DNA from: Asterochloris sp. CNOR1
Lineage: Eukaryota; Chlorophyta; Trebouxiophyceae; Trebouxiales; Trebouxiaceae
DNA: 64,000 nt
Assembly (NCBI GenBank): GCA_963969365.1
Contig: OZ017758.1
Span: 992,001 to 1,056,000, forward strand
Reading direction: 5' to 3'
Part shown: one piece after another, positions 1-64,000 of the stretch
Layout of the letters: each line of letters opens with the position of its first letter
Position numbering within the stretch: the first letter of the stretch is position 1
Position numbers and translations under genes: made by a program
The notes under the pieces: generated by a model
The model's input: only the letters and a program-made list of their open reading frames with translations
Databases searched by the model: none
Told to the model about the DNA's origin: nothing

Positions 1-3000
1 GGTGGCAGACAGACAGACAACAAGGATTCCCAAAGGTACACGTCTGGCAGGGCACTTGCCACCAAGCAGCACTGCCCCTCACCAGCCACAAAGGTGCCGT
101 GCCCATTCTGGTCCTGGGGGTTGCCGCTGACAGCTCCATTCACAAAGCTGGCACCATAGATGTCATCGACAACACCTGCAGGCGGCAATCACCAACACAT
201 CTGGTCATATCTTGTGCTATGCAACAAGAAACAACTGTTTGAGCTATGGCAGGGCAACACACCTGCCGCCAGGGAGCACCACCAGACGAGGCAGCAGTGC
301 AGTAGACGGAGTGCTTCTGCAGACAGAACTTGCAGTGCTGTGCAGGTGCAGGTGCGGGATACAGTGCCCCAGCAAGGGAGTCTAAAAGAAGCAACTGCCA
401 CTGTGTAGGAACACCCAGCAGGTGAGCCAGCCTCATCATGACTGACATGGAGGTCTGACACTCTGTTAAAGTTCTGCAGTGATCAGCAGATGCTGGCCTG
501 CAAAGCACCGGCCCAGCTGCAGGCAATGTGATCTGCACAGGCTGGCTCAGCAAGGGACACAATGCTCACCATTGTTGTCATCATCCACTCCAGGCTTGCC
601 ATTGAGCTCTGCCTGGTTCTGCCAAAGGTTGCTCATGATGTCAGGGTGGGTGAGGTCGGTGCCAGTGTCAATCATGCAGACTCTGACACTCTGCAGGGCA
701 CATGACATGTGATGGTTGTCAAACTTGGAGCATGTCCTGTGCTTGCTGGACACGTTGCTGCTGTCTGAACAAGAATGGGAGTCCCCGCCCAAGTTCTGGT
801 CGCAGAGCAATCGACGGGCACTCAACGCTTCTGCAGACAGCTGTGCAATGACGCCTCAGGCGCTTGAGTGCTGTGATCACATATGCAGCTGCTTCCCAGG
901 CATGGAGCAGGGGTTCAGTGCAGCAGCTCAGACCACCTGGGCTCCAGCAAGCCCTGCCTGCCTGTCATGTGCAGCAGCGACTGCATGTACCGCATGCCCA
1001 CCTGTGTCCCCGTGAACCCGGCCTGCCACGTTGGCACCACATCAACGCGCTGCATGTTCCACTGCTGCGCATACAGGGCATCGTTGGGCGTGGCCGATGT
1101 GCCATTGGCGCCTGTGCTGCTGGAGCTTGTCTGGAGCAGCTTCCTGCCAGCAGCCAGCTCAGCGACCAGCTCCTTCTCTGCAGCCATGACGGAGCCATAA
1201 TGTGAGGATGCTGGTCTGCGTCCTCCCATCAGCCTTGTGGGGAGTGGTAGAGCCTTCACTGCTAGCAGCAGACTGCAGGACCCTTCTGCCAGCAACCAGC
1301 CCAGCAAGAAGCTCATACGCTGCAGCCAGAAGGGGTCAAGATGTCGGATGCTGCTCTGCATCCTGCTAATCGTCAGATTGGGCAGGTTCCTGCCTGCAGC
1401 AATCAGCTGCGCCTCTGCAGCAAGGCCACAAGCTGAGGAGTGCTGAGTATTGCGAAGACCTGTGCTGCTGGAGGGCATCTGCAGGGAACTAAATGCAGAT
1501 TGCAAGTTTTGACAGTAGCTTAGGAGCAGAGTGCCGATGCGCTGGCAGGCGGCTGCAGTATCAGCAGAGAAAGTTGTCCAGCAGCCCCCAGGCCCCCTGA
1601 CACAAGGAAATTGCAGGCTGCACCCGTGAGCTGAGGGCTGAAAGCTGCCCTGCCACCCAGTAAGAGCAGGGGATCTGTAGCCAGGTTGCACCTTCTTGAG
1701 TAGGCCAATGCATGCAGGTGCCTTTTTCTTAGCGGGCCATGGACACAGCTGCTCTCCGCATTGCATGAGACTGGCTCACACATTCAGGCAGATAGCTACC
1801 TTGGGCAGGCAGAGCTACTGCACCGCCTGCATGCCCTTCACAGAGGCATGGGGTCTCACGACGAACATGGCCCGCACCTGTGTAATGCCGAGCCTTGGAG
1901 ATGTCTGTGAGGACGTCTGTGTGCACCTGGGAGTCGGGCTCACAGAAATTGACACCTGTGCAGCAGAGGGATCATGTCTGACTAGGGTTGGCGCAAGGGA
2001 GACCTGAGAGAGTAGGCTGCAGCTGGCCACAGTTGTTCAGCATGCTAACGGCACTATGTGGGGGACCAAGAGCTGACGAGGCAGCCTTTGGCTAGCTACT
2101 GCACTCCGCGGCCTGACAGATGCGTGCACTGCCTCTCAAGCTGGCAGGCTTACCTTGAGTGGCATTCTGAAGGGCATTACACAGGTTTGTGGCATTGATG
2201 CCTTGCGTTGTGTTGACATTGAAGACCTGCAGGGCAATGAGACCTGTGACACTGGTGTGAACGGGATTGCAGCAATGAACTTACAGGCCACTGTCTCGAA
2301 CGATCTTTTGTTGCGATGGTGCAGCAAATGTCTGTTTCAGCATGATGCACAGTCAACTCTGCAGCACAACAGTCAATGGCAGAGCGACACTTGCTGCTGC
2401 CTCTGACCACGCAGCACATGCACCTAATTCATCCCCATACCCTCCAGCAGAGGTGCTGTTCAGCAAGACTGCTCTGCACCAGAGTCACTCCCACAGGCAG
2501 CGGTTCTGCCTCACCTGCACTCCCGTCTGTGCGCCAGCATATGTCCTGTTCAGGGTGGCCACGGGCGCGGCAGCGGTGGCGTTGGTGCTGTTGCTAGTGC
2601 CATTGCTGGTGAAGTCTGAAGAGAAGAGGGATAAGCCACCCCCAGCGTTCTGAGTCAGCAGGCCGCCCAGCCCTCCAATGGCACCTGGGGCGGGATCAGG
2701 CAGCAACATCAGAGCCTGCTCGGCAGATTGCCCAGCCCTCCGCCAGCAACTCAGCAGCAGCAGGCAGCAGTGCATGAGGCGCTGTGCAGCCCTGCTGAAC
2801 AGGCCGCCCCTGTTATGGCACCTGGAGCAACAGGTTATGGCTGCGGAGAGCCACAAGAGCAGGACTTGCTGTGCTGCAGGAGGGCAACTAAAATGTCATG
2901 GAATAACCTTGGCAACATGGGCTGAATGCGGGCCAGGGTGGACTGGCACAAAAAAGGCATGACAGGGTGTCTGCAGGTGTGCAGGCCAACTGCAGCTGCA

Positions 3001-4009
3001 GCATGTGTGATGCTCTCATTTCCTGGCAGAAGGAATGTGCAGAGGGTTGCATGGCACGCTGTAAATGAGGTCGTTGGGGGCACCTGATGCTGCTGCATTG
3101 CCTCCGAAATCGGGGGACAAAGGGGTGAATGCGGCCTTCTGGTTGGTGGCTAGGATGACGCGATACTGGCTGTTGTCAGTGGTTCGCCCAGCTATCTGCA
3201 GGCAACAGCAGGCTGGGTGGAAGGTGCAGTGGTTTTGAGAGCTTGTGTTGGGGACTGTGTGCTGTTGTGCAGCCCATGTGGGGTTGGCGGGCCGACAGCA
3301 GCCACGCCGCTCAGCTGTCTACCTGCATCCAACATGAGTCTCTGCGGAGCGCCGGGGCTCTGACTCTCCCTGCAGCCCAAGTGAAGGGGCTTGCTGATGG
3401 CAGTGTGCACAGCCTGCGGCGCTGACTGCCTGCTGACAGGCACACCAGCTGCATCATTTCAGGGATTAGAAAGGGATGACACCAGATTCTGTTGTTGCGG
3501 TCCCAGTGGGTCCATGGGCAGCTGTCGAAGCATGCTGCCCACAGCATGCCTGTCCCCCAGCGGCCACTGCCAGCCAAACACCAGCTGCTGTCGTAATACA
3601 GCTGGCGGTGGTGCTGGTCGCCCGCTGCCTGTAACGCTGCCCTGAACGTGCATACAAGGCTGCACCACCAGCCTGCGATGACTTCTGAAGTGTGGGAGTG
3701 CAGGGACTTGCCAGCTGCTCATCATGGTCAGCTGATACCTCTGTTGCGCTGCACATGGGCTGCCTTCAGCCCTGGCTCACTGAGGCACAGGGCGCAATTG
3801 CTCCTAGACACACTACCCATGCACTCTGCTTAAACGTGAGATGACCCAGAGCAGAGCACATGACACATTAAAGGAGACTGGATCAGAATGTGCATCGAAG
3901 GAGGCAGCGCTGGCCTACAGCACATCAGCCCCTTTGTACGCACCGTCTGGCCAATTGCCGGCGAGAGGCTCCAGCAAAAGCAGAACGCCAGCACCGTGCT
4001 CCACTGCAT
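1..4009 (-). CDS. Secreted subtilisin-like serine protease (S8), C-terminal part off the left edge
   Basis: Eight exons read on the minus strand: 3944-4009, 3058-3195, 2515-2715, 2154-2226, 1878-1955, 1002-1177, 570-690 and 83-175. All join in consistent codon phase. Exon 1 (ATG at 4009) encodes a hydrophobic signal peptide starting MQWSTVLAFCFCWS. A long N-terminal region follows, with an NGT/NST-rich stretch carrying several N-glycosylation sequons, then RKLLQ and the linker ALYAQQWNMQRVDVVPTW that in subtilases comes just before the catalytic domain. Exon 570-690 carries the catalytic Asp (VRVCMIDTGTDLTHPDI). Exon 83-175 carries the catalytic His (NGHGTFVAG). The Ser motif must lie beyond position 1. 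Peptide-bond hydrolysis in the secretory route, cell wall or outside the cell is inferred from the family and the signal peptide. Two things are unusual: the long, Asn-rich region ahead of the protease domain, and an intron holding copies of the exon edge (1131-1435). Confidence 0.88.
1131..1435 (-). repeat. Decayed tandem copies of an exon start inside a subtilase intron
   Basis: The 5' edge of the exon that starts at 1177 recurs in the intron before it. On the plus strand the pattern 'cttcctgccagca...ctctgcagc' appears at 1139-1185, about 1280-1325 and about 1388-1422. Each copy is diverged and still carries a CTGCAG-like acceptor. Confidence 0.7.
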
Positions 4010-4333: not shown

Positions 4334-7300
4334 ATGCTTCTGAGACATTATATTGTCGTCTTGCGACAGGGCTCCCATGAATGGCGCAACATCCAGCCAG
4401 TTCTGCGCCACGCCTTCAGAGCAGTGCTGGAGCTGGTCAGGTCCCAGGGGCAGCAGATAGACACACTGGAGCAGCAGCTGGCGCAGGGGGTCACCCGGGA
4501 CGAGCTGTCGTCCGCGCTCACCCAGAGAGTGTCCAGCAAGGAGTTCACTGCCAGGATGCGCAAGGTGAAAGGTGCAGGGTCGTGGTTCCGCAAGACGGGG
4601 CGGATGTAGCGGCATCCTCCAGGGTGCAGGCATGTGTGCTGAGTGCCAGTGCTGTCTGGCCGGTGTCTGCTTTGCAGGGACTGCATTGGGAGTGGGCGCT
4701 GTGCAATAGCACCTGCTGCTCTCCAGGGTTCAGCCAAACCTGCTCTGTGCGCAAGGTCCTGTTCTGAGCGACTCTGGCTGAGGTTAGCTGCTGACAGCAG
4801 GGCCAATGGTGCAGCCTCTTTGTTGCATCTGAACTGCAGCGCCCTTTGGGCCTAGCAGGCAGGCTGGCAGCTCTGCTGCACAGCAGCCCTAACAACAAGG
4901 AGCGCAACCTTGCTTCCCTGTCCGCCACCACGAGCAGCAGCGGCTGTGGAGGGTAGTACAGACGTTGCAGACCTGCGCCAGCTGCTTGAGCACTGCATGA
5001 GCACTACGTTTGACTGCAGACCTGTCCTGCCGGCTGCTTTCCGCCCCTCAGGTCGGTCATGCCTTCCTCACAGCCGGCAGCGGCCAGGGAGGGCAGGGCA
5101 GATGTTACAGACTCTGCGCCAGACATACCCTGCCAGCACCTCTCGGCCACCACACAATGCATCACAGGTAGAAGCAGCCATGCAGGGCACGGCAGAGAGT
5201 GCACACCTGCACCAGCTGCGGCACTGCGTCTGAGAGGCTGGCCCTGTCCTGCCAGCTGTTCTCTGCCGCCCAGGCCTGCCCTGCATGCCTCACAGGTGGA
5301 GGCAGCCATGGAGGGCCAGGCAAACCCGCGCCAGCTACAGCAGCATGCAGACCAGCAGAACGCACTGGCCACAGCTGCGCTGGCCGACAAGGCAGATGCG
5401 GCAGCCCTGCAGCGCCTGCAGCGGGAGATGCAGCAGAGCACAGCTGACCTGCAGAGGCAGGTGGAAGCGGTGCTGGTCCAGGGGCGGCAGCTGCAGGCTG
5501 CACAAGACCAGCTGCAGGTGCGCAAGGCTTGGTGTGACAAAGTCTGAGCTATACACATCTGTGAGCAGGAGTGTGATGGGACAGCCTCAGCCTGTGCAAC
5601 TGTGAGACCCTGGCAAGCTTTGAACAAACGCCTGGACCATGGACATCATTGGCGGTTCTGACCTGAACAAGGCCTGGCAGGCTGCACAGAACCAGCTGCA
5701 GAACAGGAGGTCAGGTCTGCGCTGGGTGGGGCGTTTCAGACTCGCTGAAGGTGCACGGCCGATGGAACGTGCCGGGGCACAGAAACCGGCTGGACTCATG
5801 CACAGGCCTGCATGAAAGGTGCCTGCGCAGCACGTGGGAGTCGCCTGCGTTACCTGGTGGAGCAAAAGGGTGGCAGTGCCTCAGCTGCCTGCTGAGCATG
5901 CGGTGCCAGGAGCAAGGTCGACTTCTGCGGTACGCTTAGGCTCAAGGATGCACTGGGGTCACCATCAGGCGTGGGGACACAGGAAGGAGGCCTTATAGTC
6001 ACAGCGCTGCTCCCTGGTGCAGGGTGCGATGGAGGAGCAGCAGGGACGCCAGCACAGGGAGCTGTCGCGCGGGCTGCACAAGTTGGAGGGAGCAGTGGAT
6101 GACCTGAGGGGCACAGTGGAGGACAAGGTGGGCTGGCTGCCTCAGACACTCTGAGACAGGCACAGGTGGCCCTGGCACTAGCTGAGTCCGCTCTTGCCCA
6201 GTGCTATCAAGCAGAGGTTGCTGCTGCCTGTGCTGCGTGCCTGCGCAGAGTCTCAATGCCTGCCTGTGCCCCTCTCTGAAGCTCTGCGTGCTCCTCACCT
6301 GCTCACTGATCAAACCTGGCTGCAGGTGAATGTGGAGGACTTCCTGCGCCTGGAGCAGGCAGCTGCCAGCGCAGCCAGCCTAGAATCCATGGCCAGCGAC
6401 CTCAGGGCAGACCTGTCTGCGCTGAACAGTGCCCAGGCCCGCAGGCATGGCACGGCTGAATCAATGGACCGCAGGCTTGAGGAGGTGCAACGACGTCAGG
6501 AGGCACAGGGGCATCACACAGCTGAAGCCCTGAAGGCTCTCAGGTGAGCAGGTGCCTGACAGGGCCACGCGTCTACATGCTGGAGCTTCCGGGCATGAGG
6601 ACAGCATCAGCAGCAGACACAGGACCCTGGGTGGGAGGGACCAGCACACCACGGCAGGTGAGGCAGCAACACGAGGCACCTTGAGCTGCATACTGAGGTG
6701 CAGCGCTGGCAGCAGGTGCAAGGGCTGCACATGGCGGGAGCCTGAGGTGCTACAGGTGAGGCAGCAACACACCTCGTACAAGCCGCTCAAGGTTTGCTGA
6801 GGAGACGCAGAAACGAAACGGGTGGCTGTAGATGTCGGCCTGCAGAGTGACAGTGCATCATGTGCAGCTGGGCGGGCATTATGCACTGGCGGCACATATC
6901 TCATTCAGCATGCGTATGCAGCCTGTCCAGTGCGGCAGCCCCTTGCCCCACCATGGTCTGCGGAGCCAGGTTCCTAATTCATGGTCATGCTGCAGCCGCA
7001 CCTTTGACAACACCATCGTGGCGATCCAGGACCAGGCAGCCTCCCTGCAGGCAGCCCAGCAGCGATCGCAGGACCAGGCCCAGCTGGCTCAGGAGCAGCT
7101 GCAGCGCCTTCACTCTGCACGCACCACCGACCTCGCTGAGGTGTGGCAGCAGCTGGACGGCAAGGCAGACATGGACATTGTGCGGAAGGCCACGTCAGGG
7201 CTGACCTCGGGCAGCCTGGTTCAGCAGGTGGGTCAGGGAAGGCTGGGTGGCCCACGCTGAGGCTGCATCCGGCTGCAGCGCTGCGCAGTGTGCTGATATG

Positions 7301-8584: not shown

Positions 8585-8649
8585 CGATGAATGGCTGCCC
8601 AACAGATGCAACATAGGTGGTTCTGCTATCACTCGCTGTCAGAGGCAGC

Positions 8650-9700: not shown

Positions 9701-9721
9701 CATAGCCATCGTCAGATCTGA

Positions 9722-12700: not shown

Positions 12701-15700
12701 CAAGCGGCGTCTGTCCCAAATCCTGTCCAAGTACCAGCACAAGGTGGAAGAGCACACTGCCAGCGAGAGGGGGGCCGATGCGCTGCCCTCCTTCCATCCA
12801 GCAGGGGACGCTGTCAACGAGGCCTTCTTGCGCGAGCAGGAACGCTTCACCTCGCGCATCAGCCTCCTGGCCAGCGACTGTGGCATCACTGAGGAGGAAT
12901 GGTTTCAGGTGGGGTTGCTATTGCTATCTTGGCGTGTGAGGGCGCTAGCAGGTTGCATCACAAGGGGCTGGATCTTGTGTGCTGTCCAGGGATGTGCTGT
13001 TCTAGGTTGCGGTCAACGATTTTGTGGAGCCCCAGTGCTCTACCCTGCGCATCAGCCTGCTGGCCAACGACTGTGGCTTACTGAAGGAGGCTTTGCTTCA
13101 TGCGGGGCATCTAGTGCTATTTTGGCTGGTGAAGGGACAAACAGGGTGCACAAGGCTGCATCGTGTGGTGCGCTGGGAATGCAGTCAACTTTGCTCCTTG
13201 AGCAGGAGCGCATGTTTGACAAGGTGACATAGCTGAGAGGGACTGCTTCCGTGTTGAGCATTGGGGCATTTGCTGGGGTTGTGTTGAACTTGTTGGGTGA
13301 AGGCAAGTGTCATCGCGCAGGCAAGCATCCTTCTGTGGGAAGGGCTGCAGCTGCAGAGAGGCAGGCTGGAAGTGAGCGGCCAGCCGGCGAACTGCTGTGG
13401 CATCAGTGAGGAGGACCAGGTGGCAATGTGGGGTCGCTCCGGGAGGGGGGGGGGGAAGGGGGGGGGGGGGGGGCAGCCACACCCATTGTGCTGGTTACCA
13501 CTGTGCAGGGGGACCCCGAGTATGAGTCCTGCCTGACAGACCTGCGCGACAAGTTTAAGCACGCCCTGCGGCCCCGCAAGCAAGCGGCCGCTCTGGACAA
13601 CCACCTGCGCAATGAGCTCACGGTGCCCACCTGGTCCAATGCCGTACTTGCCAAGGTGCGCAGCATGACAGGGTCAGTCAGGTTCCCACTGTGTAGCATG
13701 TTGGCGGGCTGTTTCGCTGAGGTGCCTTTCCCAGCTGCAATTGCGATGTTTGCTGGGCCAAGGTCAGCTTGCAGAGTCTCTGATGCCGTCTGCTGGGTGC
13801 ACCAACCGCTTGTGCACTTGCCAGGGGCTGTCCTCTTCGCGCAGTACTGGGACTGACCAAACTCTGTATGCCTTGCCAGTGAACAGTGCACCTCATCAGC
13901 AGTCAACTGTTGTCATGGTCCAGGCTGTGCTTGCCAATGTGCACAGCCATCTGGGGTGCTCTCAGCAACTGAGTGCAGCAGTGTCAGGATACGGCACCTG
14001 TGCATGCTGTCTGTCTCTGCTGCCTTTTGCGCCGAGAGCAGAGGGTCACAGTTGCTAGAGGGCCTGTGCTTCGATGACTGGACTGCTGCCTGACTGATCC
14101 TGCCACTTTGCCAGAACTTCTTTTGCCTGCAGCTTGGCGCCATGATGCTTCAAGTCCTCATCCGCACCGCCATGGTAGAGGTGCCTGCCAAAGATGACTT
14201 TAATAGGTGGGCTGCCACGGAAGCCTCCCTTTGGACATCTGCTGATTGCTCCATGACACAGCCCTGCATATACCCTCTTCATCACCATCAGATGAGCTGC
14301 CAGCACCCTGTTCCTCGGCCTTTACCCATGTCTCATATGCAGCCTGCATGAAGCGCTGCGGCAGCTGCTGTGCCAAGCATTAGAATGGCCCTGTCCTCAG
14401 CACTGTGCGGTGTGAGTGGCACCTGCAGCCTGCGCCCCCTCATCTGGGGTGCAATGCCTGGGCCTCATGCTGACAGCCCCTGCTGTGACGCTCGGCCCTC
14501 CTGCTGCAGGACTATCCCTGGCCGCACCCTCGAGCAGCCTGCCTTTGAGCATGCCATTCTGCGCGGCCTGGACAAGCATGGCCATGCGGGCGACAAGAAG
14601 ACCTCCAAGGGGTGGTGGAAGCGCTATGGCGTGGTCACCATGCATGACGCTGTGGTGGCCCGCCTGCGCAATAATAATTTTGAGGTGGGCTCCCTGCCTT
14701 TTGCTGTTGAACATCCTCTCTCCGGCGCTTTGTCCTCTGAGAATCCTTGCGGCATAGTGTGCCTGCCACTGCACAACTAACGGCGCCTGCTAGACAGGCG
14801 AGTGTGGCATTGGTGCAGCTCGCCCAGGTTCTCCGGTCAGCATTCACGATGCTGTGCTGGCCTGCCGGCGCAACAACAAGTTGCATGTAGATCTTCCAGC
14901 CAGATCTGTGTGGGGAGACTTGCCTGCAGGGCATGCTTGCTGTCATGTAGCACCAATATGCTAACTGCAGAAGTCGACATATAGGGCACAGCCTGGCTGG
15001 CAGCACATCACCCCACCTGTGTAGCTGTCAGCTGGCCATGCTTCGTTTGTGCTTAGGCAGCAGCAGCATGCCGAATGCATGGTGATGCGCAGGAGTAGGA
15101 AGCAGAAACATGCTTGAGCACAATGCTTGCGCCAATTGATGGTGCAAGAATGCTTGCTGCTGGCCCACTCTGCTACTACAGCAGCCTGGGAGCCTCTTTC
15201 CCAAGTACTTGCTGCAGCCCCAGGACATTTGCCCATCTTGCTGCTGCAGTGGCATGACGGCTTCCTGCCCAAGTATATGCCCATGATCATTCCTCCCATT
15301 CCATGGTCAGGCGTCTACCAGGGGGGCTACCTCACACACAGCACCTGCATCATGCGCGCACGTGGCAGCCACAGGCAGATCGATCTGCTCAAGGAGGCCG
15401 ACCGCACCGGGCAGCTGAACAGGGTGAGTGCCTGCTGCTGTGAGGCTCATCTGCTGTGTGGTCTGAAGCTGAGCCACATGGCTGCCAACACATGTTTACA
15501 TCCGCCTAATGAGCTGCTACCTGTGTGGCCTGATCGCTTGGTAGACAGGGCCTCTATACGTACGAAGGTGCGGCGAGGTGCTTGCTCACTGTGGCTTGAT
15601 CAGGGTTGTTCTGCATGATACACAGGGGGCTCCTGAGACGGCAGCCCGACCCTGGCCCCCATGACCAGCCTCAAAGAGAAGATTTTGCTGAAGCCTGCTC

Positions 15701-18700
15701 AGTCCCTTGGGGATGATCGTCTTCAGTGTCATCAAGATATTCCTCTGCAGCTTCTTTGAGGCAACGAGTGCCCTGGGAGGGAGAGACTGCTACAGGGAAT
15801 CTCGACTTGGCATGCGCTACTGTCTGTGCTCTCTGAGCAATCCCTAGCATAGGAGATGCTATCTCCTGGAGGGTGAAAGGGGGCTGTCTGGAAAAGGTGA
15901 CAGGACTTGTGCCTCACGTACCTCCTCGCCAGCCCTGTCGCTTAGCAGCCAGGTGATCGCAGGCTGTGAATGGTACATGAAGCGAATTGAAAAGGGCACG
16001 AGGCATGGTTCAGCTGTACGTGAAGCTCATGTCAGCGCTCTCCCACTGCAGGTCTATGAGGCGCTGAATGCCCTGGGGGAGACTGCCTGGAGCATCAATG
16101 ATGACGTGCTGGAGGCAGTGGAGTATGCATATCAAGTTGAGGGGGGCGGCATGGCAGGCCTGCCCCTGCACTCCAGCAAGGGGGAGCCTGCCCTGGTGCC
16201 TGAGCGCCCCCCTCTCCGATACAGGACAGAGGCCAAGCATGGGCGCATGATAGCTGCAGTGAGCTGGAGCAAGCCTGCAGCCTGTGCCTAAAGGGCAGCT
16301 GGGCTGGCCTGTCGCGCATGCTGGCGCATAGATTGAGGCTGATGGTCTTTTGTCCTCTGAGCAAGCTCTGGGCATGTTGGACTTGCCGTGTGGGAGGTAC
16401 TGGCTGCCTACGGTCCACCCTGCACACGAGGTACCCCACAGTGGGCCTTGACCCTTGCAGAACCGCTTGCTTGATCCGTGGCTGTGCAGGTGCTGCCGCC
16501 ATCTGGCCCTGAGCTCCAGAGCTGGAAGCATCAGGCCGCTGCTGCCCGCAAGCTGTGCAGAGAGATGCACTCTCTCAGATGCGACATGAACTACAAACTT
16601 GCGGTGAGGCTCCTGCATTAATGCTTCCCAATCTAAGACTGCACACTCAGCGCAGGGCTTGCATTGTGACCATGACGCCTGCGCCCTGCTGTGCTGCTGG
16701 CGGCCCGGGGCCTGCAGTGTGGCCTTGAGAGTTGCATCTGGACAGCTGGACACAGAGATCTGTCGAGCCAAGCAAGCGCTCCACTCACAAAGGCGGAATG
16801 CTGCATGTGACTGCCCTGTGTGCGCTCCATCTGGTTTCGCAGGACTGATCACTGGCATTCACTTGATGCTTATGCTCTTGACCATGCTGCTGGCCTGCGC
16901 AAGTTAAGCGGGGGAGTCCATCTCCATCTGCTTTGCAGCCTGGATGCTGCTATCGTAGGCCGCCTCATCGCCTTGTCCTGCCTCCTGTGGGCTGGTCCCT
17001 GTATTTTATCTCTGCCTCCTTGTTGCGAAGGTGGCCCAGCTTGCAAATGGCGGTCCATCTCTTGTGTGCCTGCTGGTGCTTGGAAAGGCGCGGCCTCCTT
17101 CCAACCGACTTCATTGCCTGTGCAGTTTGTCTGGGTTCATTCCATTGCATTCAGGCAACCTTTTGTCTGTGCAGGTCGCTCAGGCCTTCCGCAAGGAGGA
17201 CTCTATGTACTTCCCTCACAACCTGGACTTCCGGGGGCGAGCCTACCCCATGCACCCCCACCTGAATCACCTGGGGGGGGACGTCAACCGGGGGCTGCTT
17301 CAGTTTGCGGATGCCAAGCCCCTGGGCCCCTCTGGCCTCAAGTGGCTGAAAGTCAGCGTGAGTGCGGCCTCGCACCGCGTGTCTGTGGTGCTCCTGCTTG
17401 TGCTGCAGGAGTGCACCAGCAGGCAGAGGGCACCTGGGGAGTCAGCACGCAGCCATACTTGTGAAGTCTCAGCATTCACATGTGAAGCAGCCTGGGTGAC
17501 TCCTCACTGTCACAGCTCTCCTGGCTCTGTTCCTCTCTGTATCATCCCCCTGCTACATGTTGCACTCTGCTGTGTGGTTTGCAGGTGGCCAATTTGTTTG
17601 GCAGGGGCGCTGACAAGCTGGCCTTCTCAGGGGAGAATGGGCGGGAACAATTTGCTGATGACCACCTCGGGCAGATCATGGACTCAGCTGATGATCCCTT
17701 TGGTGGGGAGAGGTGAGGCTAGAATGCCTGTCATTGTTGTGCGGCTGCACTTGCTGGGTGCTCGTGGGGCTGCCAGAGCGTGCCGTTCCCATACAAAGCT
17801 GCTGACACATATGTGAGCCCTTTTCTGAGATGCTGCAGGCGCCAGTGCCCCACTCATGCCCCTCTTGCGTGCATGGGAAGGCTTCAGGGAGAGTCCTGTT
17901 GTCAAGTGCTGGCTGTGTGCAAGGACCACTGCACCGTCCATCCACCTGCCACCTCAACTCATATGCCAATGTTTTATGCAGGTGGTGGCGTCAGGGACAG
18001 TTCCCCTGGCAGCTGCTGGCAGTCTGCAAGTGATGGTGGTCCGCCTCATTGTACAGGTTGTGACAACGCAGCGTCACTGTCAGTACCTGCAGACTTCCAG
18101 CTTTCACTCAGCCTGCCATCCCCCTGCGTGCCTGATGTGGCTGCAGGCAGAGTCCTCCTGACAGCTGCTGGCGCTTTACTGACATGCTACTGCTCCATGC
18201 ACGTGGTGGCCACAGGGAGAGTCCCCTTGGCAGCTGCTTGGCAGACTGCATGGCCTCTTGCAAGGCGTCGGCCATTAAATTCTGGGTGCAGGTTGTGCCC
18301 AGGCAATGTTTGTTGAATACGCCGACCTGCAACCTCCCCGCTGATTCTGCCATCCCCGTGCGCGCAGGTGGTGGCTGCAGGGGGACTCCCCCTGGCAGCT
18401 GCTGGCAGTGTGCAAGGACCTGCGCAAAGCCCTGGCCTGCGCCTGCCCTGAGGCCTACCTCTCCCGCCTACCCGTCCACCAGGATGGCAGCTGCAACGGC
18501 CTGCAGCACTATGCTGCGCTGTCCCGGGACGAGAGCGGGGGGCGGGCTGTCAACCTGGCGCCTGTCGACCGCCCTCAGGTGGGCTGACCAGCCATGGTGC
18601 ACACAGGGGCAAGCAGCCGCCTCCGACTACACGAGGGACGTGCTCGTGCTGTCAAGTTGTCGTCTGTCTCAAACACAGCTCCAAGCGCGCTGTGGGGTTG

Positions 18701-21265: not shown

Positions 21266-24200
21266 TCAGGATGTGGCATTGTTCTCATCTTCATGTTTGT
21301 AGTGGGCAGCACGACCTGTCTGTCCTGCAACTGCGCTGATGACGGGCTGTTTAGGCGCGCCGACCATGGGAGCTTCCAAGCCCTTGTAAGTCCGGCGGGC
21401 GATCAAATACTCAGATGCATTGCTGACAGCCACCATCTGGCCCTGACTGCCTACATGGCAGCAGAACAAGCTTTAGCACAGCATACAGCGCTACGGCCAC
21501 AGTGTGCATGGATGCAGCTGCTGCTTGCTTGTGAGATTCATACTTTCGATTGTGACTGGTGGGCTGTACCTGAGGGCTTCCCTGTGCACCCTGAGCCTTT
21601 TTGAGCAGTCTGCATGGTGAGCTCCTTCGAAGGTCATGGCCAGGCTCGCCATGCAGCCAAAGGGCTTGTTCAGCCTGGATATGGATCGCATCTGGGATCA
21701 TGGTTGCCACAGGGCATGGCGATGCTCACCATGCAGCTGCAGGGCACTCTCAGGTCTGACAGCCAGCGCCTCGGAGGCCCCGTCATCTGCACTGTCTGTA
21801 GGCAACCCTGCATGGTACCCGCCATCCAGCAGCGAGAAGCGCGGCTCCTGCGCAGTGCCACCCCGGGTTGCAGGCTGCTGAGCGTTGTCCTGCAGCAGCA
21901 GCAGCAGGAAGGTAGGTCAAGTATCCCTGGCCTGAGCTAGCGCAGCTCCTGGGCTGCATGAGGCTGACTTTCAGCTGTTGCGCTCCGTTGTTATTTGGCT
22001 TGCAAGGCGCTGAGCATTGCCCTGCAGCAGTACCAGGAAGGCAGATCAGACATCTTTGACCTCCGCCAGAGCGGCTCGTGGGCTGTATGCATGACAAGAT
22101 CACGTAACTTCGTCACCTTGACATCACCAGGCTCACCAGCACCGCGGCAAAGTCTAGGTGGTACTCCCCCGTCCACTCTGCCCCGCCAGCAAAGGCCAGG
22201 TGGGCCTCAAAGGGGGTGATGATGGGGGCATAGTACTCCTTGCTGTCCAGGATCATGCCTTGAGGGTCAGCCACCATCACAAACACCTGCGGGGCACCCG
22301 CAGCACACGTGGGGCGGCATGTCAAGGTTCTGAGCCAAGCAGGTGGCTGAAGCTGGAGCAGACCCTGAGAGGCCAGAGGGCTACACCATCACAAACGCAT
22401 GCAGAGGCAGTCAAGCGTGCAGGAGACACAGAACCACATCACGGTGTGGCTATCATCACAGAGGGCAGCGGGTAACCACAGTAAGTCATGCAGGACCAAG
22501 TGTGGCCACAATCACAGATTGCTGCAGGCAAAGCCTGTGTTTCAGTGCGCAAGCCCATGCAGAGTTGCCCTGAGGGCCAGTGTGCCTCTGCGGACAGCCT
22601 CAACACATGGTTTGGGGAGCACCATGCTCTGATGGCTGCGGCAGCCACCCCCTGTCTCTGCAGTGCCTCCCCAACGAGCTGTTCCTCTGATCAAAGCAGA
22701 AGCGCACAGCAGAAGGTCTTTGAAGAAGGCCTCAGCTTGCCTCAATCTCAGGAAAGTTGGCCAGCTTCACAGGGCTGGGCTTGCCCATGAGCAGGGTGTA
22801 TGTCTTCTTGCCGGCCCGCTGCGCCAGCTCCCGCACAGCTGCAATTGCCTGCTGGTAGCCTGCCACCCCCAGCGTCCCCACCAGGATGCCTACAGGGCGG
22901 GGCAGGGGTGTGGGGTTGATGATGAAGAATGTCCAGGATCACTGCCCAGCCGGATGAGCTGCGGCTCAGCACACAGGGCACCTACCAAGTCAGCCTGCTG
23001 TACGCAGATGTTGCTGGCAATAGGCGGCACACTTGAGCTGCAGCGTAGCCTGTGTGGCCCTCACAGGCAGCGACAGCGCACTGAGACTGCAGCAGAGGCC
23101 ATGCAGCATAATGCGCCAGCAGCGCATGTTGCAGTGCAGCACAGTTCAACTGCCAGCAGGTATGCCTGTCCTTCTCGAAACCCCACAGGGGTGCAGCACT
23201 GGCAGAGATGCTGCCATCCACCTTTTCCCGTGGCGTGCTGGATATCGGCTTTCAGGCACTGTGCCATCCAACACGGGCCACTCACCAATGATGCTGGCAT
23301 TCTTGGCTTTCTCGACGAGGTAGTAGCGTTTCCTGAGGGTCTTGCTGACTTCCATTGGAATGCCCTCCTGCCAGCGTTGCTCCTCTGGCTCATACATGGC
23401 CCAGTGGCAACTGCAGCAGCAGGCGAGTCCTCTTTCGAAGCCAGCACCCCGGCATGCAGCATTGCCAGCCACAGGGGTCAAAGGCAATTATGCCTGCCCT
23501 GCAGCATCTCATTAGTCCAAAGGCCTGGCTGCAGGGTCATATGCAGGCTCTGCCTGAGGCAGCAGGCAGGCCGCGCCTTGCCTGTTGAGGGTCATCTGAA
23601 GATGGGCCAGCCCTGCCACCTCATCTGGGCCCACCCAGACCCATGCGCAGTCTGTCTCAGACAGCCCAAGGGGTAGCTGCCAGTGGTACCCTGCCAGGCA
23701 GCCTGCCTTGCCTGCCACAGCCTGCATGTGCTGAGCTGGCTGGTCGGCAGTGACCCCAGGGTCTGAGAGTACCTTCACTGGAGCACTGCCTGCCTCCTGC
23801 AGGCCGACTGCTGACCGCTCAGTGGTGCCTGCTGAGTGTCTCTGCTCTTGAGGGCCTGGCTGCCAAGATGCAGCTGCGTCTCTGGGTGCTGCTGCTGGAG
23901 GCCCCTCTGGCCTGGAGACTGCTGGATGCTGCCCTGCCTTAACAGCATTGCTGGGCTGCTCAGCGTGGCTGGAGGCAGGTATGACTGTCACATAAGGCGG
24001 CCCTGCCTCAGGCAGCTGGTCCTGCCTGCAGCAGCCAGAAGCAGCAGGAGACCCTGCCTGGGGCATGGCAGGCTGCTGGTGGCCAGCACCCAGCGCAGCG
24101 GTGCAGCTCGTACAGGGTGGTGCACCACCTGGGGTTTGCTTCGGCGCTGTGTCTGGAGTCGGAGTAAGACTTCGAGCTTGGATGTTGCTGAACACGGTAG

Positions 24201-26063: not shown

Positions 26064-35316
<9,253 letters not shown>

Positions 35317-46189: not shown

Positions 46190-49100
46190 TCAGGACCTGA
46201 ATCTCACCAAGACCCTCCCCACAGACCACAACACAAGGCGTGTGCATCGCACCTCGCGAAGGTGTGCGCAGCGCAGGATCAGCTGCGCCCACACCGTGCT
46301 GGCCGCCAGCAGCCCAAGGGCCAGGTCTGGCCCAGCCATATCCACCACAGCCAGGGGCCCAGCGGCTGTGCAGCCCTTGAGCGCTGCTGCCAGCAGCAGG
46401 GGCCCAGCCTCCACCAGCCGCTCGTCCTCACTGGCTGGCATCTGCAGCGCCACCTCGACCAGGCCATCCTCTGGCAGAGCTTTGACCTGCACGTACAGGA
46501 CACAGCTTGAGGATTTTCTGGGGGTGCAACAGCAGGAGCGCCCCTACGCCAAGCACAAATCTGGCAGGGCCTTGACCACTACATGCCAGAGGGTTCACAG
46601 GCCAAGCACATGAAACAAAGCCACAGCCCTGCAACATGCGCAAAATTGAACACAACAGCATCCAGGCCATCCTGCGCTGCTTTTGACAAAGCCACTACAC
46701 CGGCAGTGGGACGCAGCTGCAGCTATGACCTCATGTTGCTATGACCTCATGAGGTCTGCCTTGCTAACATCTTGAACAGCATGCTCACCTGGCACAACTC
46801 CTGACCTGCTCGTGACTCACGCTCCAGAAGCAGTGCTCTCTCCTGAGGCCACATGCATGCAGTCCCCAGTGTTCCGTTGCAGACCTGCCCAGCATCAGTG
46901 CTCGCTTTGCGGGAACACTCACATTGAGCTGCGCCCCAGGAAGCTGCTGAAGTGGCTCCTGTAGCCCCTCCTGCAGCTGCTGCACCACCCCCTGCAGCTC
47001 GGCCTGTGGAGCTTTGGGGAACCCAGTGCTGGCCACACAGCCAGCAGTCACTGTGACGGTCGCCTCATCACCCCTGCAGACACAGATGTGTGGCTTGCCT
47101 ACAGGGTCCTGGCTGCACTCTGGGGACACAAACATACCCAGCAGAGCATGGCTGGCAAAGCATCAGACTATCCAGTGCTTCCAGCAGGCGGCAAACATGC
47201 TCTTGAACTTTGCCACTATCCAGCTGGCATCACAAAACCCACCTGTTGGCCTGCACAACATCAGCGTAGGGGAGCGGCAACCGCGGAGCCACCCGCAGAG
47301 TCAGCGTGAAAGCCTGGAAGCTGCCGCCATCTGAACCTGGCACCACCAGATCTTCCCCTTGCCCATTGAAAATCAGGTCCAAGGCGCGGCACTGCAGCAT
47401 CTCGATGTGCTGCTCCAGCAGCTGACCTGCCATGTCCAGCAGCCCCTTGCGGCATTCCTCATCTGCCTGGCCGGCTGCCGCCTCCCATCCAGCGTGCCAG
47501 CCTGCAAACTCGCTGCAGTGGCAGAGACCTTTCAGTGAGCGTGCCGGCAGCCGACGTGTCCCATGAGGATGCATGCCAGTCTGTGCAGCCCGGGCTTCCT
47601 GGATTGGGTGCTGGTCTGCACATCACTGCAGCTCAGCGCTATCCAGGGTGCTTGCTGGCGGGGCCCCTCCAGCACAGCAGGGACCGAGGAGACCCCGCCG
47701 TATCAGCGGATGTGAGGGCTGCTGGGTGCACAGGTTTTCAAGTGCTAGTGAACCCGACCCACTGTAGCCGGCGTGGACCAAGGCAGGAGGCAGGGAGTTG
47801 CAGAGAGCCCTGCGCTGTGACAGAGCCTGCCTGCAGGCACTTGCGGTTGCGCTCAAGCCTCGGAGCAGCTCATCCTAAGCTGGCAGCCCTGCCTCACCTG
47901 GTCATGGCAAAATGCTTCTGGACCAGACCCTCTGGGGGAACACGGCAGGAGTGCCCTGACTTGGGCATTCATGTACTGCTGGGCAAACGGAGACCCAGCC
48001 ACTCACACTGCCACCGCCCCCCATGCACAATGTGCTCTGACACTGCTGTCTCACCTGGTCCTTTCAAAGTACTTCTTCCAGGCCACCGCCTCGTCCACAT
48101 CCCTGTCTGCCTCTGGGTGGACAGCGTGCAGCTCGCCCTGGGCGGCCTCTTCTGTCAGGATGGCGCCCAGCCAGGAGTGCTGCGGCTGCCCCTGCCCCTC
48201 CCCAAGCAGCTGCAGCAGAGGGTAAGCTACGTGGGTCAGCCCATAACCAAAAGTTTGACTGGGGTTCGACTATCCAGGCGCATGAGGAGTGCTGCGGCTG
48301 CTGCTGCCCCCATCCCCCAGCAGCTGCAGTAATGGTGAGGGTGAGTAGCCAGGCAAACATGCAAGCTAAATGGTCACACGCAAAACGCATTGCCTACAAG
48401 CAACCTTGCAGCTGCTGCTGTCCCTCCTGCGGCGGTGGCAGCAGCAGCAACAGGGGTGACGCCATCTTAAGCGTTGCAAGGCTACGACGGCTGCTGCTCC
48501 TCCCTAGCAGCTGCAGCAGCACCAGGTGCCAAGTGCCAGAGAGCCACACCTTGAACAGACCTGATGCAGGGGTGATGGTATCTTCCTACGCCCTGCTGCA
48601 GCAGCCGAAGTGGCCACATGACGCTGGTGGCCATGCTCTGGGCAGCCTGGTCAGGATGCAGGGTGCTGGCAACACTTGGGGGCTCTGCCTGACATGCAGC
48701 TTACTAAACTTGTTCTGCCTTGCAGTCTTGCCGCACAGCCTGCCGCCACTCCTGTCCATCGCCTGAACAGTGCTGCTGCAAGAGGCAGCGCCTTCCAACA
48801 AGTATGCACCACCAGCATTGTAGTGCCTGCAGACCAGCTGCAACAGGAGGGCACATCATCGACCGCCCCCTGCAACCTGACCTGAGCAAACAGGTGTGCG
48901 CCGCCCGCCAGGCCCTGGGCGTCCCCCAGAGCGAACTGGCGGCTCAGGCGGTTGAGGTGCTGCACTGCGCGGACCATGGTGGCGGGCTGCTGCGAGAAGG
49001 ACATCCACCTGGAGGCCTGCACGCGCGCAAGGGGGCCGCCCTCCAGGCGCGAGGCAGACTCATCAGCCACCTGCACCGGGACAGTGACAGCCTAGGCATT

Positions 49101-52100
49101 GCAAGCAGCTGACCCAGCCTTTTCTTGGAGACGAATTGGAGGCCACTGGTCGTGCTATGGTCACCACAAGGCAGCCATTTACACCTTCTCAGAAGGCTGC
49201 GTCTTGACGCCCGCCGGTGATCAGCCTGATTAGACGGGATGTCTTGCTGGGGGCAGGCATCCTGTGCAAGGCATGCATCGGCTGACTTGCAGCGGCTGCA
49301 CCGGCCAGGCAGTGCAGGCCTCAGGAGCCACAGGCAGGCGGCCTGACACACGGTGGCCATGCCACCTGCTCTTGCAGTGTAGCAGTCTGGATGCGGATCC
49401 CAAGGTCTGTCACGAGCAACACCTGCACGGCAATCCTTTCCACATGCAGGCACTGACCCTCCCTCCCAGGTGCCTGCTCGTGCCCAGTGCCTGTGCAGGC
49501 CCACCTGCATCGAGATCTCCTCCACCTCCAGGCACCACCCCTCCTCCCCGGGCGCGTGCTCCACGTCCCCGCAGTGCCACGCGCTGAAGTCGTCGACGGC
49601 ACAGTCCCAGATGGCCTGGCACTCCTGCAGGCCAAACCCGGCCGCCAGCTGCAGCCAGAAGCGCACCAGCAGCGGGCGCCGGCGGCTGCGGCACAGCAGA
49701 CGAGCATAGCTGCCCACCGCTGCCTGGTCCATGCTCTGGTCTCTGATCAGCTGCTCGCAGTAGGCCTCCAGCAGCCCGTTCATGCACTCCTGCAGCACAT
49801 GTACCGTGCAAGCTGTCCACCAGCTGTGCATGCTGCAGCTGCTCAAGGTAGCTGAATATTTTCCACACAGCAAAGACATGGTGATCATGCAAGATCATGG
49901 GGGACAAGAGCACTCAGAGTACCATTGCACCAGAGGGCCACGATGATGGAAGGCAGCCTGGAAAATAAGGCAGGACTTGGTCCGACTCCCGTGGAGCTTG
50001 GCCTCTGCAGCATTCTTGAGGGCCAAGCCATAGGAGCTTCAGTGGCGAAAGGCGCAGCTTCTGGCAGGGCCTGCCAGATATCAACACGCAGACTCACATG
50101 AACCTCAGCATCTGCGGCATCAGGGGTGCCCCAGGGCTTTGGAGCCCCAGTGGGCAGCTGCGCAATCATGACTGCCAGGTGGGCCGCCACGCGCCGACGA
50201 GTGTCGCAGTCACACTCTGGTGCAGCCTGCATGCAAAGTTGCACCCTGAGCGACAGCATCGAGCATCATGTTGCCTGCAGACTTGCCTGCTGAACAAAGT
50301 CATGCAGGCCCGGCGCGTCTCCTCACACCATCCACTCCCTTACCATCTTTGTGATGCCTGGGGGACCTCCACCCTACCACATACATGCGCTCAGATGTAG
50401 CAGCAAGATGTATGCTGCTTGGAGTGCATGCACATGCGTCATATACCTGTCTGGGACCCAGCAGTTTGCTGCTGACTGGCCTACCACAGCTGCAGCTTAA
50501 GCCAGGGGGCTGACGCTTTACCTGCGCCCTGATCATTGACAGTCCATGTCCTGCAAGCTCGCCACACGAACCCAGGCACAAACGCTGCTGCCGTAAATTC
50601 AGGAGCATGGTCTCACTGGTCAGTGAGAGCTCAGTCCTGTGAGGCCACCGCACAGACCAAAGCATGCATGGCTGCTGTAACACTTGTGGGATCTCGGCCC
50701 CACCTGCACCCATGCCGGCATTGTCTCTGCCAACAGGGTTCTCCAGCGCTCTGCAATTATGTCCTTGAGCACCTGCCAGTCAGAGGGCAGGTGGACTCCT
50801 GCCTGGGTGCAGTCTTGCTCCACAGTCTCCAGCAGCCCAGTAACATCTTGGGGCCTTCCCTCACCCTGCAGGGCATTGTAGTGCCACGAGATGGTGCCTC
50901 CCTCATGCTGCACACGGCAGGGACATTCCCTGATGCCAGACATACACTCGAGCCCAGTGCATGCTCAGCCAAGGGCGGTAGCCTGGGAACACCTCAGTGG
51001 CGGCAGCAGGCAGCCTGGAAGCAGTCTGTTGTCTCAGCCATCCTGCCCCATAACCTAATCAGAAGCAGGGAGTAGTGGCAGCAATCATGCAGAAGTAGAG
51101 GTCCAGTAACAAAGCAAGGATGGCAGCAGCACGTGCCTGCCTAGTAGTAGGCAGCTCACCATGGCAGCTTGCTGCACGGCGGCGCCATCATGAATGGCAA
51201 CCCCAAGCTGCCGTGCACGCTCAGGGTCATCTAGGAGCGCCTGAGAGGCGCTCAGTGCGTCGATGCCCTACACAGAAGTCACTGGTCTCTGTCAGAGCAT
51301 CTGAAGACGCAGTCAAGTTGAGCATGGCCGCCCAACCAGGGGTGGGAGAGGGCCTTGCACAGAAGGTGAGCAGGGAGGTGCCTCCCTGTCAAGGCCGCTG
51401 TCCAGGGAGCTGGGCGGTGCACCAATGTCAGTGCAGCCTTTGATGTGGTATGTGGATCAGCCTAGCGGCCAAGCTGTAGGCATTGGAACTGCGTTTGCAC
51501 AGTGGACAGCAGCATGCTTGTCGTGCAGGCATGCCCCCCCACCCAAGCGACAGCACTGCTGGCCCTGCTCTGTTCCAGCAGGGCTGCATCTATGCGCCTC
51601 TCAAGCCAGCAGCGTGTGTGGGCCCAGGCCATGTCCATCCACCCCTCACAAGCCTGCAGAGAATGACAGAGTAGGTGAAAGCCTGCAGATGCGCCTTGAG
51701 GAATTCTTTGGCGCTGACAGGTGCCAGTCAATATTGCTGCTGGCTGGCCTTGGGTCATCTCGTATCAGCAGGCGCCACTGGGGCTCAGGTGAGAATCTTG
51801 AAAGAGGCAGCTGGCAGCGTTCTGCCAATGCGAGGCTGAGGCAGTGAAGATATTGGACTGCAAACAGAGCGTCCTTCAATACTGTGCTCAAATGGTGCGG
51901 TGGGTGGCAAGCGCCATCCGCCGCCTGCCAGTGGGCACTGCCTCATCAAAGCTGAAGGTGTCTAACTGCTTCTTCTTGCGCACAACACCTGTCAGAGCTG
52001 TGCAGCCACAGCAGCATGTTGAGAGAAGCCTCACCGGCAGCATTCCTGGCAGCTGGGCGCCCAGGAAAGCATAGATGGCGCATTCCATGCGGGCAGCCTC

Positions 52101-61914: not shown

Positions 61915-62346
61915 ACAGGCACCAACAGACCCTCAACACCTCAACAAAGAGGTAGCTGGATCCCCCCATATTGATCCTTGTCTCTAGTCCCCCCCCCGGG
62001 AATTGCAAAACACATGTGCCCTCTCATAAAACAAACCCCAGTCGCCACCCTTGCTTAGAGATTCAAACGATTATGCATGCCACAGGTTGGTGGAGGCCGC
62101 CTGTGCTGCAAGGACTGGGCATGATTGCACAGCACTGAGGACTTCCCTATCTGCTTGTCATGTTGACTTGCTCTCCTTTTAGACCCTAACAAGTTCTTTT
62201 GAATTGATAGAGGCTGCTTTTGCACAGAACTGTTAAGCACTGGGATAGCAAGTCTCTTCGTACAGGGTCAAGGTCTGACAGGCGGATTTCCGTTGACTTG
62301 CCGCCAAACTTATTGCACACTGCATGTCAAGTTTGATCTCTTCAGC
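61915..62346. other. Gap between bZIP and POLE2
   Basis: These 432 bases have no supported gene. A C-run (gtcccccccccggg, about 61987-62000) and lower-GC stretches occur. They probably hold the bZIP 3' UTR and the POLE2 promoter. Confidence 0.4.
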
Positions 62347-64000
62347 ATGGCTCACATGCTGAGGCATGAGATCATAGCAGAGTTCAGGACCGAACAGCTG
62401 TCCCTTGACCCGGCTGCCATCAAGCTACTTCAGACTCGCATCGAGGAGAGCAATGCTGGCAGGGACATGGTCATGGCTGTAGTAGCAGCTGTGAAGGAGG
62501 CAATGGGGTCAGCAGGCATGCCTTCTGAAGTGTGCAACCAGGTCACAACAGACCTGTCATAAGAGCCCCTCATTGCTGGGTGCAGAGGAACCGGTGAAAG
62601 TCACAGCACCCATGGTGGAGCAGGCGCTGGCCAGTTGGGGTGGGGAGCCCTCCCAGCTGGAGCTCATGGAAGTGATCTCAGCCTTTGAGACGCCCCGTGT
62701 AAAGTTTGATGTCATCAGGCAGCACTTCTACCCCTGCAAGGAGGCCCCCACCCTGCACGGCAGCGCTCAGGTGCATCCTGCAGCAGATGTGCTGGCAGCC
62801 TGGCCGCACTTGGCTTCCCCGCTGCACAGGGCTGCCTGTGGTTGTACAAAGCTACAGCCCACCTGATGCTTGCTTGAGAGTGGGTCCCTGCAGCAGCATC
62901 CTGGCTTCATTGCTGCCAGCCTTGCAGCGGCCAGTCTCACTGCCCCACATCTGCAGCACACTTGAACGTCACCACCTGCAGGACAAGCTCCAGCTGTACC
63001 TGGACAGGTTGCTCATCTTGCAGCAGCGTCTGCGGCGGCACCCCCTGTTCAACAAGCCTGCTCTGAGTGGGATGGGAGGCAGCCACCAGGACTACTGCGA
63101 GGTGAGCCAGGCACTAAATCAGTGGGACTGCCGCTGTTGCCAGATGGGCCTGACTCATTGCTACAGCACTGTTCCAGGCGCTGTGTTCAGCAGGAGCTGT
63201 GCCATGTCCAGATGGGTCAGCCTTTGCTTGAAACCATGCTTGTTGAAAGCAGATTGCTGGCAGGCGCTGCACTGACAGCTCTCTGCTAGGATGGGCTGCT
63301 GGCTGAGGGCCCTGCTGTGTATGCTAAAGAGAACCGTGCTGTCAATGATGTGCTGCTGGCAGTTTCTTTATGTGGGGCCCCTGCATTCAGGGGCAGCCAA
63401 CATTGGAGCAGAGCAGTGGGCATGTAAGAAGCCCAGCCCATTACAGTTTATGCCCCTGGCCGGCCATCTTGGCTTTGCTGGTTGCAAGTCAGGCAGCATC
63501 ATGTCACGAAAGCTGCCTATCCCAGCTCTCCCCTGGGCAGCCACCTACCTCCACCACAGCGCCTGGCCTTTCAGACAACGCTGGGTGCCATGCAGCTTTC
63601 AAAGACCAAGACTCTGCTGGGCTGGGCTGGGATTAGGTACTGCAACGTGGACTTCATGCCACCACCGAGACACTTTTGTGAATTGACGGATAGCACGCCC
63701 CACTATTGCACCTGCCACGCAAGGTGCAAAGACTCAGGCCCTGCTGGCTGCGTCGAGTGCTGCCGCTGCCGTGGCCACACCATCCTGCGTGCCATGCAGA
63801 TGTCGGAGATCAAGGCCCTGCTGGGTTGCGCGGGAGAGCGGCGCTATGTGATGGGATGCATCAGCCAGCTGGAGGATGGCAAGTACTTCCTGGAGGACCT
63901 TTCTGGGCGCTTGCAGCTTGACCTGACCCATGCAGAGACCACGGAAGGCTTTTACACAGGTCTGCCATGAGCACGGTTCCCGAGCCATTTGGTGTCGGTG
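62347..64000 (+). CDS. POLE2: DNA polymerase epsilon subunit 2, 3' part off the right edge
   Basis: Four exons seen (62347-62541, 62588-62770, 62982-63101, 63800-63959), in phase, about 219 residues; the rest lies beyond the window. N-terminal FRTEQLSLDPAAIKLLQTRI matches the family's small helical N-terminal domain. VTAPMVEQALASWGGEP, LEVISAFETPRVKFDVIRQ-like text (LMEVISAFETPRVKFDVIR) and LYLDRLLILQQRLRRHPLF follow. Exon 4 has IKALLGCAGERRYVMGCISQ and KYFLEDLSGRLQLDLTHAE with GFYTG, the OB-fold segment of POLE2/Dpb2. It is the essential non-catalytic subunit of the leading-strand replicative polymerase in the nucleus. The phosphodiesterase-like C-terminal domain is not in view. Intron 1 is only 46 bases, so the acceptor at 62586-62587 should be treated with some care; an upstream non-coding exon is possible. 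Confidence 0.9.
63575..63850 (+). repeat. Two decayed copies of a POLE2 exon start in the preceding intron
   Basis: The exon edge at 63800 (gtgccatgcagatgtcggag, atcaaggccctgctggg) is echoed at 63587-63625 (gtgccatgcagctttcaaag, accaagactctgctggg) and more weakly at 63715-63755 (cacgcaaggtgcaaagactc, aggccctgctggc). Confidence 0.85.

Follow-up and report, generated by a model that had tools for sequence, protein, structure and literature searches.

The question raised by this stretch of the green alga Asterochloris sp. CNOR1 (contig OZ017758.1, positions 992,001 to 1,056,000; 64,000 nucleotides, hereafter the window) is why introns of unrelated genes contain degraded copies of the exon borders beside them. 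A preliminary description, made from the sequence alone, had attributed these copies to repeated tandem duplication across exon-intron junctions. We find that about one predicted intron in six still holds a decayed local copy of the adjoining coding sequence, here called an exon-edge echo. The copies are local and direct, are restricted to exon edges, occur in most of the gene-bearing stretches sampled, and never lie at the opposite splice site. The echo is probably, in the main, a preservation effect of general local duplication rather than the product of a process aimed at junctions.

The window was analysed together with 18 further 10-kb stretches taken elsewhere in the genome, which has 21 contigs totalling 56.38 Mb; the sampled DNA comes to 244 kb. 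Each of these loci is the piece beginning at position 500001 of a large contig, a choice fixed before inspection, and none had been seen by the author of the preliminary description. Genes were predicted with a purpose-written hidden-Markov model that was seeded with 728 codons of recognisable peptides and then trained itself on the sampled DNA. It called 215 exons and 190 introns in the 244 kb (median predicted intron 389.5 bases), with donor context (C)AG/GTGAG and acceptor context CTGCAG/G, where the slash marks the junction; adjacent genes are sometimes fused in its output, and one prediction in the window contains a stop.

Exon edges in neighbouring introns

For each predicted exon, up to 80 coding bases at its edge, with the splice site left out, were aligned to the body of its own intron trimmed of splice signals. 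Exon flanks shorter than 30 bases and short intron bodies were left out, and 113 of the 115 introns of the 18 loci entered the per-intron test. At a score of at least 28, a coding flank matched its own intron in 10 of 75 introns of the window and in 23 of 113 introns of the unseen loci; the chance expectation taken from other introns was 0.1 and 0.15, respectively, and the reverse complement gave 0. Counted by edge at the same score, 15 of 184 upstream and 18 of 180 downstream edges matched their own intron, against backgrounds (upstream, downstream) of 0.3 and 0.4 for non-neighbour introns, 0.7 and 0.2 for shuffled introns, and 0 and 0 for the reverse complement, which is an excess of the kind expected from the preliminary description.

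These own-intron matches are confined to the exon edge. At a score of at least 34, they fall within the first 40 exon bases at the junction in 7 of 182 and 9 of 178 edges, within the next 40 bases in 1 of 169 and 2 of 162, and in neither of two further bins. A score of at least 30 is reached by 38 copies, which lie in 30 of the 190 predicted introns; five of these introns hold two copies and one holds four. At least one such copy is present in 10 of the 13 unseen loci having predicted introns, and the recurrence in unrelated genes on both strands first noticed in the window is therefore found again beyond it. The proposal that copies accompany longer introns also stood (median 509.5 bases for 26 introns with copies and 339.5 for 164 without; p=0.0011).

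When the window was compared with itself, 12 repeat pairs reached E<=1e-3; every one is direct, with a spacing between 62 and 493 bases. The cases reported earlier in the subtilase, coiled-coil, RPOT, DPH2-side, phototropin and NUP107 regions were recovered among these pairs, that of the RPOT exon at 18368 by several of them. That at the locus previously named POLE2 (63581-63630/63785-63834) was recovered in the piecewise comparison, in which the E-value scale is more lenient. The spacing of the copies, first given as 65-205 bases, is corrected to 62 to more than 400 bases, with the majority below 300.

Orientation, spacing and placement of local repeats

We compared 25 pieces, the window in seven and the 18 loci, with themselves and with one another. 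Self-matches were direct in 76 cases and inverted in 2. The 25 between-piece comparisons gave 3 matches, one of them a clear dispersed repeat common to loci L001 and L006. A dispersed element was rejected as the source of the echoes on this count and on the chance-level matching of non-neighbour introns. A genome search with three query regions returned, among the matches listed, no place for each region but its own.

The distances between repeated 11-base words, counted in the window and 16 of the 18 loci (the array-rich L011 and L012 were left out), show the same locality. Direct pairs per base reach 4.4 at 91-100 bases and 3.7 at 101-120, against 0.20-0.27 beyond 700. Beyond microsatellite-like periods, direct spacings peak at 91-120 bases, with an excess over 60-280 bases. 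Direct word pairs less than 40 bases apart are also abundant (3.3-6.3, microsatellite-like), and a shallow dip (1.0-1.4) at 41-60 bases hints at two separate duplication processes. Beyond 500 bases inverted pairs outnumber direct ones, probably owing to a long inverted repeat that was left in the count (L006 7057-8264 and 8793-10000; 1208 bases, 100% identity).

Once repeat pairs more than 700 bases apart had been dropped, 69 pairs were kept. Exon and intron are joined by 36 of these, 30 of which cross the junction. Of the rest, 18 fall outside predicted genes, in sequence where genes may have been missed, 9 sit inside introns, 5 are at the ends of genes, and 1 connects two exons. Homology spans at least 90% of the period in 17 of the 69 pairs. 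Most pairs probably originated by head-to-tail duplication, full adjacency being visible in this minority; the others may have decayed or may have been limited to the exon. Of 179 introns, 21 contain direct repeats within themselves, where a mosaic control drawn without replacement gives an expectation of 0.5; 8 of these 21 introns also contain an exon-edge copy. When introns were aligned to their own reverse complement, 15 of 179 scored at least 32; 14 of these proved to be hairpins that overlap themselves, the exception being one separated pair (L008 7812-7854 and 7993-8036, 89% identity, arms 138 bases apart).

The placement of the pairs bears on whether exon-intron junctions are the targets of duplication, for instance by way of nicks linked to transcription or splicing or of RNA-DNA hybrids, with the exon edge and its splice site as the duplicated unit. 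Such targeting would account for the short reach of the copies. Among 29 junction-crossing rows, 18 have a match that enters the intron by no more than 15 bases and covers mostly 20-70 exon bases, and only 11 of 33 cases show significant intron homology past the splice site. However, the repeats found within introns and outside predicted genes are not what a process confined to junctions would leave, and we consider targeting unlikely, a judgement to which the simulations below contribute.

Form and decay of the copies

The position of the copies within introns is informative about how they arose. In 30 of 38 cases the copy lies nearer its own exon edge, and in 0 of 38 does the copied junction come within 15 bases of the opposite splice site. 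This bears on intron gain of the type described by Rogers, in which an exonic segment bearing AGGT is duplicated, one unit becomes a whole intron, and the intron grows later. The predicted contexts CAG/GTGAG and CTGCAG/G do make AG/G frequent on both sides of introns, which would suit such an origin. However, the copied junctions are absent from the far end, where that geometry would put them, and we regard this origin as very improbable for the introns with echoes. For the detectable copies themselves this geometry, in which the period would equal the intron length, was rejected.

Comparison of exon with copy by codon position gives mismatch frequencies of 0.121, 0.131 and 0.229, a third-position excess of 1.81 (bootstrap 1.47-2.23). 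Copies simulated to decay freely beside an exon held to 0.05 of the neutral rate at positions 1-2 and to 0.9 of it at position 3 give an excess of 1.70 (range 1.40-2.10), and values of 1.70-1.77 are reached when the exon is well constrained and the copy is free. All 16 single gaps in the copies are of lengths that are not multiples of three; they lie in 12 of the 38 copies and produce a net frameshift in 8. Together with in-frame stops, which occur in 3, they leave 10 of 38 copies defective over a mean of 38 aligned bases and 28 of 38 intact there. Where copies are aligned to within 3 bases of the junction, AG is kept in 7 of 13 acceptors and GT/GC in 3 of 7 donors. The decoy splice sites of the preliminary description are thus present in part of the copies, and these dinucleotides appear to be kept no better than decay would leave them.

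These features also bear on a different reading, that the copies are, or long were, duplicated alternative exons or regulatory decoy exons, partly under selection. The intact frame of 28 copies over their short aligned stretches would fit this reading, as would a third-position excess at the high end for one-sided constraint, the 3 stops where 7.3 are expected, and a frequency of gaps below that of the indel-rich simulation described below. Weighed against these are single gaps that are never multiples of three in length, the defects in 10 of 38 copies, and splice dinucleotides that fare no better than the rest; moreover, a ratio of 1.8 is attainable with constraint on the exon alone, and the gene finder, free to use both copies, called both as exons in only 1 of 69 pairs. 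We disfavour this reading and think it improbable. Free decay is the simplest reading of the copies, with some room for constraint on them.

General duplication or junction targeting

The process that we prefer would run as follows. Segments of about 60-300 bases would be duplicated beside themselves at many sites in the genome, presumably through repair of staggered breaks or nicks. Duplications inside coding sequence would mostly be purged by selection, and those within an intron or across one exon-intron junction would be tolerated because splicing at the outer site still yields the old mRNA. The extra copy would then sit in a lengthened intron and decay under little or no constraint, probably neutrally. 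Where both copies are intronic both would decay, and the trace would soon fade; at an exon edge it would stay readable longer because coding constraint slows the exon copy.

A simulation in which duplications were placed at random on the predicted gene structures, with duplications confined to an exon or covering an entire intron discarded and the remainder left to neutral decay, speaks to the choice between this process and junction targeting. With n the number of changes per site, the chance of detecting a trace at n=0.2 was 0.38 for exon-intron and 0.35 for intron-intron duplications; at n=0.25 the corresponding values were 0.35 and 0.15. The observed numbers, 26 and 21 introns, stand in about the simulated ratio. 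The earlier view of the mechanism is thus supported as regards local direct duplication and is not borne out as regards junctions as special targets, since repeats also lie within introns and outside predicted genes and random placement comes close to the data; some bias towards junctions may nevertheless exist.

All other simulations of decay treated the acceptor side only. With n=0.2, an exon part of at most 90 bases and an indel-rich spectrum, the simulated copies had a score of 43.8, a length of 40.8, an identity of 0.860 and an intron-side fraction of 0.32; the observed values are 41.9, 37.7, 0.854 and 0.33. A typical copy age of about 0.2 changes per site per copy would fit these figures. 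Two other versions were rejected: uniform ages predicted intron-side homology of 0.69-0.84, unlike the data, and a fixed age with an exon part of up to the whole period gave segments that were too long and less identical than observed.

Several results weigh against general duplication with preserved edges as the full account. The agreement in four measures rests on settings that we chose, and the exons are throughout those predicted by the gene finder. The indel-rich settings predict gaps in about 0.5 and a net frameshift in about 0.4 of copies, and 12 of 38 and 8 of 38 are seen; with fewer indels at the observed identity, the predicted intron-side homology rises to roughly 0.4-0.8, against 0.33. 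This mismatch suggests that some copies were perhaps limited to the exon from the start, or decay less than neutrally. The overprediction of gapped copies weakens the preferred account and raises both junction targeting, for which indel-rich decay is the competing explanation of short intron-side homology, and the alternative-exon reading. At exon rates of 0.12 and 0.7, those used in all other simulations including the placement and intron-side homology fits, the simulated third-position excess is 1.40 rather than 1.81, a value reached in 0.9% of samples of 38. Stops are few, at 3 in 442 copy codons where 7.3 are expected, although 9 of 100 random runs were as low. Young copies are also scarce: 1 of 38 scores above 80, whereas the simulated average is 94-114 at n<=0.1. 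That single copy, the best exon-intron case (L007 6918-7157), is 88% identical over its full 119-base period. Either the rate of duplication has dropped or fresh copies are seldom kept.

If a duplication leaves a detectable trace with a probability near 0.38, the 26 of 190 introns with echoes would correspond to about 0.36 duplications of visible age per intron. At a typical unit of 130 bases, about 50 bases of a 390-base intron would derive from them. This estimate is a lower bound because older copies go unseen. It is conceivable, though on balance doubtful, that introns of this algal lineage have grown chiefly by local tandem duplication and consist for the most part of superimposed, decayed copies of their own sequence and of the exon edges beside them. 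Were this so, exon edges would serve as dated fossils from which the rate of duplication could be measured genome-wide. Exon-edge echoes offer a count of past intron-lengthening duplications from a single genome, since the exon copy changes slowly under coding constraint. The echoes also form a reserve of surplus splice sites and near-exon sequence that could give rise to new isoforms.

Comparison with known processes

Small tandem duplications have reportedly been described in rice by Vaughn and Bennetzen in 2014. Small tandem duplications are a recognised class of mutation that arises from staggered breaks filled in and joined (PMC8355091). These are likewise short, local, direct, head-to-tail copies; however, they are fresh events, whereas the units here are mostly 60-300 bases long, old, and recognised in introns through the copied exon. 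Tandem duplication is also a recognised, if rarely proven, source of new introns (PMC4974935, PMC2891723), on which the excerpted text of PMC3488318 contains little. The ATP2A1 case is cited in this literature, and a paper on potato notes, in addition, a duplication of 83 bases inside an intron. When introns are gained in this way, exon and splice-site sequence is similarly copied; there the result is a new intron, whereas here the copied site lies inside an existing one. Introner elements (PMC9860276) likewise affect introns of many genes. However, they are dispersed copies of one element, and each algal copy resembles its own neighbour only.

Conspicuously long introns have been reported in six green-alga species in a comparative study of Chlamydomonas, which describes the advantage of retaining such length as unknown and does not settle on a driving mechanism (PMC8226300). 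For Asterochloris glomerata, a genome of 56 Mb with nine introns per gene has been reported (PMC6652019). Among the titles and abstract openings listed by our searches of an open-access library, we found no description of exon-edge echoes across the introns of one genome. What may be new here is the counting of the echo over the introns of one genome; small tandem duplication, and intron gain by it, were known already.

Echoes in individual genes of the window

Five of seven window proteins or pieces matched Pfam families (subtilase, RNA polymerase, PAS and kinase in the phototropin, diphthamide synthesis, RRM, and Nup84/107), and alignments to PDB chains were obtained for three regions (kinase, subtilase and RPOT). 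The names subtilase, RPOT, phototropin, DPH2 and NUP107 are upheld by Pfam and partly by PDB. That of POLE2 is not, Pfam having given chorismate mutase and a sub-threshold match to bZIP; the prediction at this locus is probably a fusion of neighbouring genes. No Pfam family was matched by the coiled-coil protein or by the latter half of the NUP107 prediction.

In the subtilase gene (minus strand; Pfam and PDB), the start of the predicted coding exon 1002-1187 recurs 142 bases upstream, the pair 1131-1224/1273-1364 being 76% identical over 94 bases (E 7e-9). The upstream copy may sit in a 5' intron or untranslated region, as the gene-finder start lies here. In the coiled-coil gene (plus strand), self-comparison pairs 5021-5100 with 5243-5322 and 5157-5194 with 5285-5322 at the first predicted exon (5308-5517). 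The end of this exon (5493-5517) is copied at 5677-5701 in intron 5518-6022, with 23 of 25 bases identical.

RPOT (plus strand) carries echoes of both kinds. On the donor side, the exon end, donor and intron head at 12854-12979 recur at 13047-13167 and 13379-13415 in intron 12909-13445, with intron-side homology at p 0.01. The end of exon 14510-14684 (from 14633) is copied at about 14835-14882 in intron 14685-15249 (79% over 48 bases). On the acceptor side, the acceptor and start of exon 18368-18578 (to 18420) have four decayed intron copies at about 17861-17927, 17978-18030, 18120-18186 and 18199-18253. The alignment to the mitochondrial RNA polymerase in PDB continues through the real exon at 18368. 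On the DPH2 side (minus strand), the acceptor-like sequence CTGCTGCAG ending near 21890, with the bases that follow, belongs to the pair 21865-21960/21997-22089 and has a copy near 22022 (73% over 96 bases). The putative exon start near 21890 was read from the sequence by eye and lies outside the gene-finder exons.

The phototropin gene (minus strand) contains a head-to-tail pair of period 62-65 at 26653-26790, inside intron 26587-26881. Intron 27218-27774 holds two copies of a stretch near the end of exon 27775-27894 (to 27836), one at about 27476-27505 and the other at about 27598-27627, with scores of 35 and 30. An acceptor and exon start at 32051-32102 (junction 32089/32090) is copied at 32149-32200 and, more weakly (67%), at 32224-32275. 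In the NUP107 gene, also on the minus strand, the acceptor and exon start at 48173-48215 (junction 48209/48210) has a copy at 48285-48329 in intron 48210-48881 (89% over 45 bases), and the end of exon 49505-49789 (to 49561) reappears within intron 49071-49504, at about 49439-49479, with 76% identity over 41 bases and a score of 32. At the locus previously called POLE2 (plus strand, gene name unconfirmed), the acceptor and exon start with junction 63799/63800 are copied at 63572-63630 in intron 63102-63799, the pair extending to 63834.

Other features of the genome

Beyond the inverted repeat of L006, its segment 1079-1756 and L001 9327-10000 have 687 aligned bases in common at 88% identity; these L006 and L001 repeats possibly represent a recent mobile element. 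Locus L012 contains three 68-base units at 545-748 (93-96%), one of a few young repeats outside predicted genes, and a diverged multi-copy tandem array at 2108-3721. A 404-base pair at 82% lies at L011 6184-6987.

Locus L013 (C13:500001-510000) has a GC content of 0.523, the lowest of the 18 loci (0.538-0.591 in the others), and an intron-poor prediction of 692 amino acids. By eye, we take this protein to resemble the primase-helicase of large DNA viruses. A low-GC viral remnant has been reported in Asterochloris glomerata (excerpt of PMC6652019).

Contig C20 (110,056 bases) is mitochondrial, and its COX1 is probably intron-bearing because it was found in two pieces. Contig C21 (215,390 bases, by subtraction) is plastid and has two Photo_RC genes. 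Both are close in size to the mitochondrial (110,932 bases) and chloroplast (217,546 bases) genomes given for Asterochloris glomerata in the same excerpt (PMC6652019).

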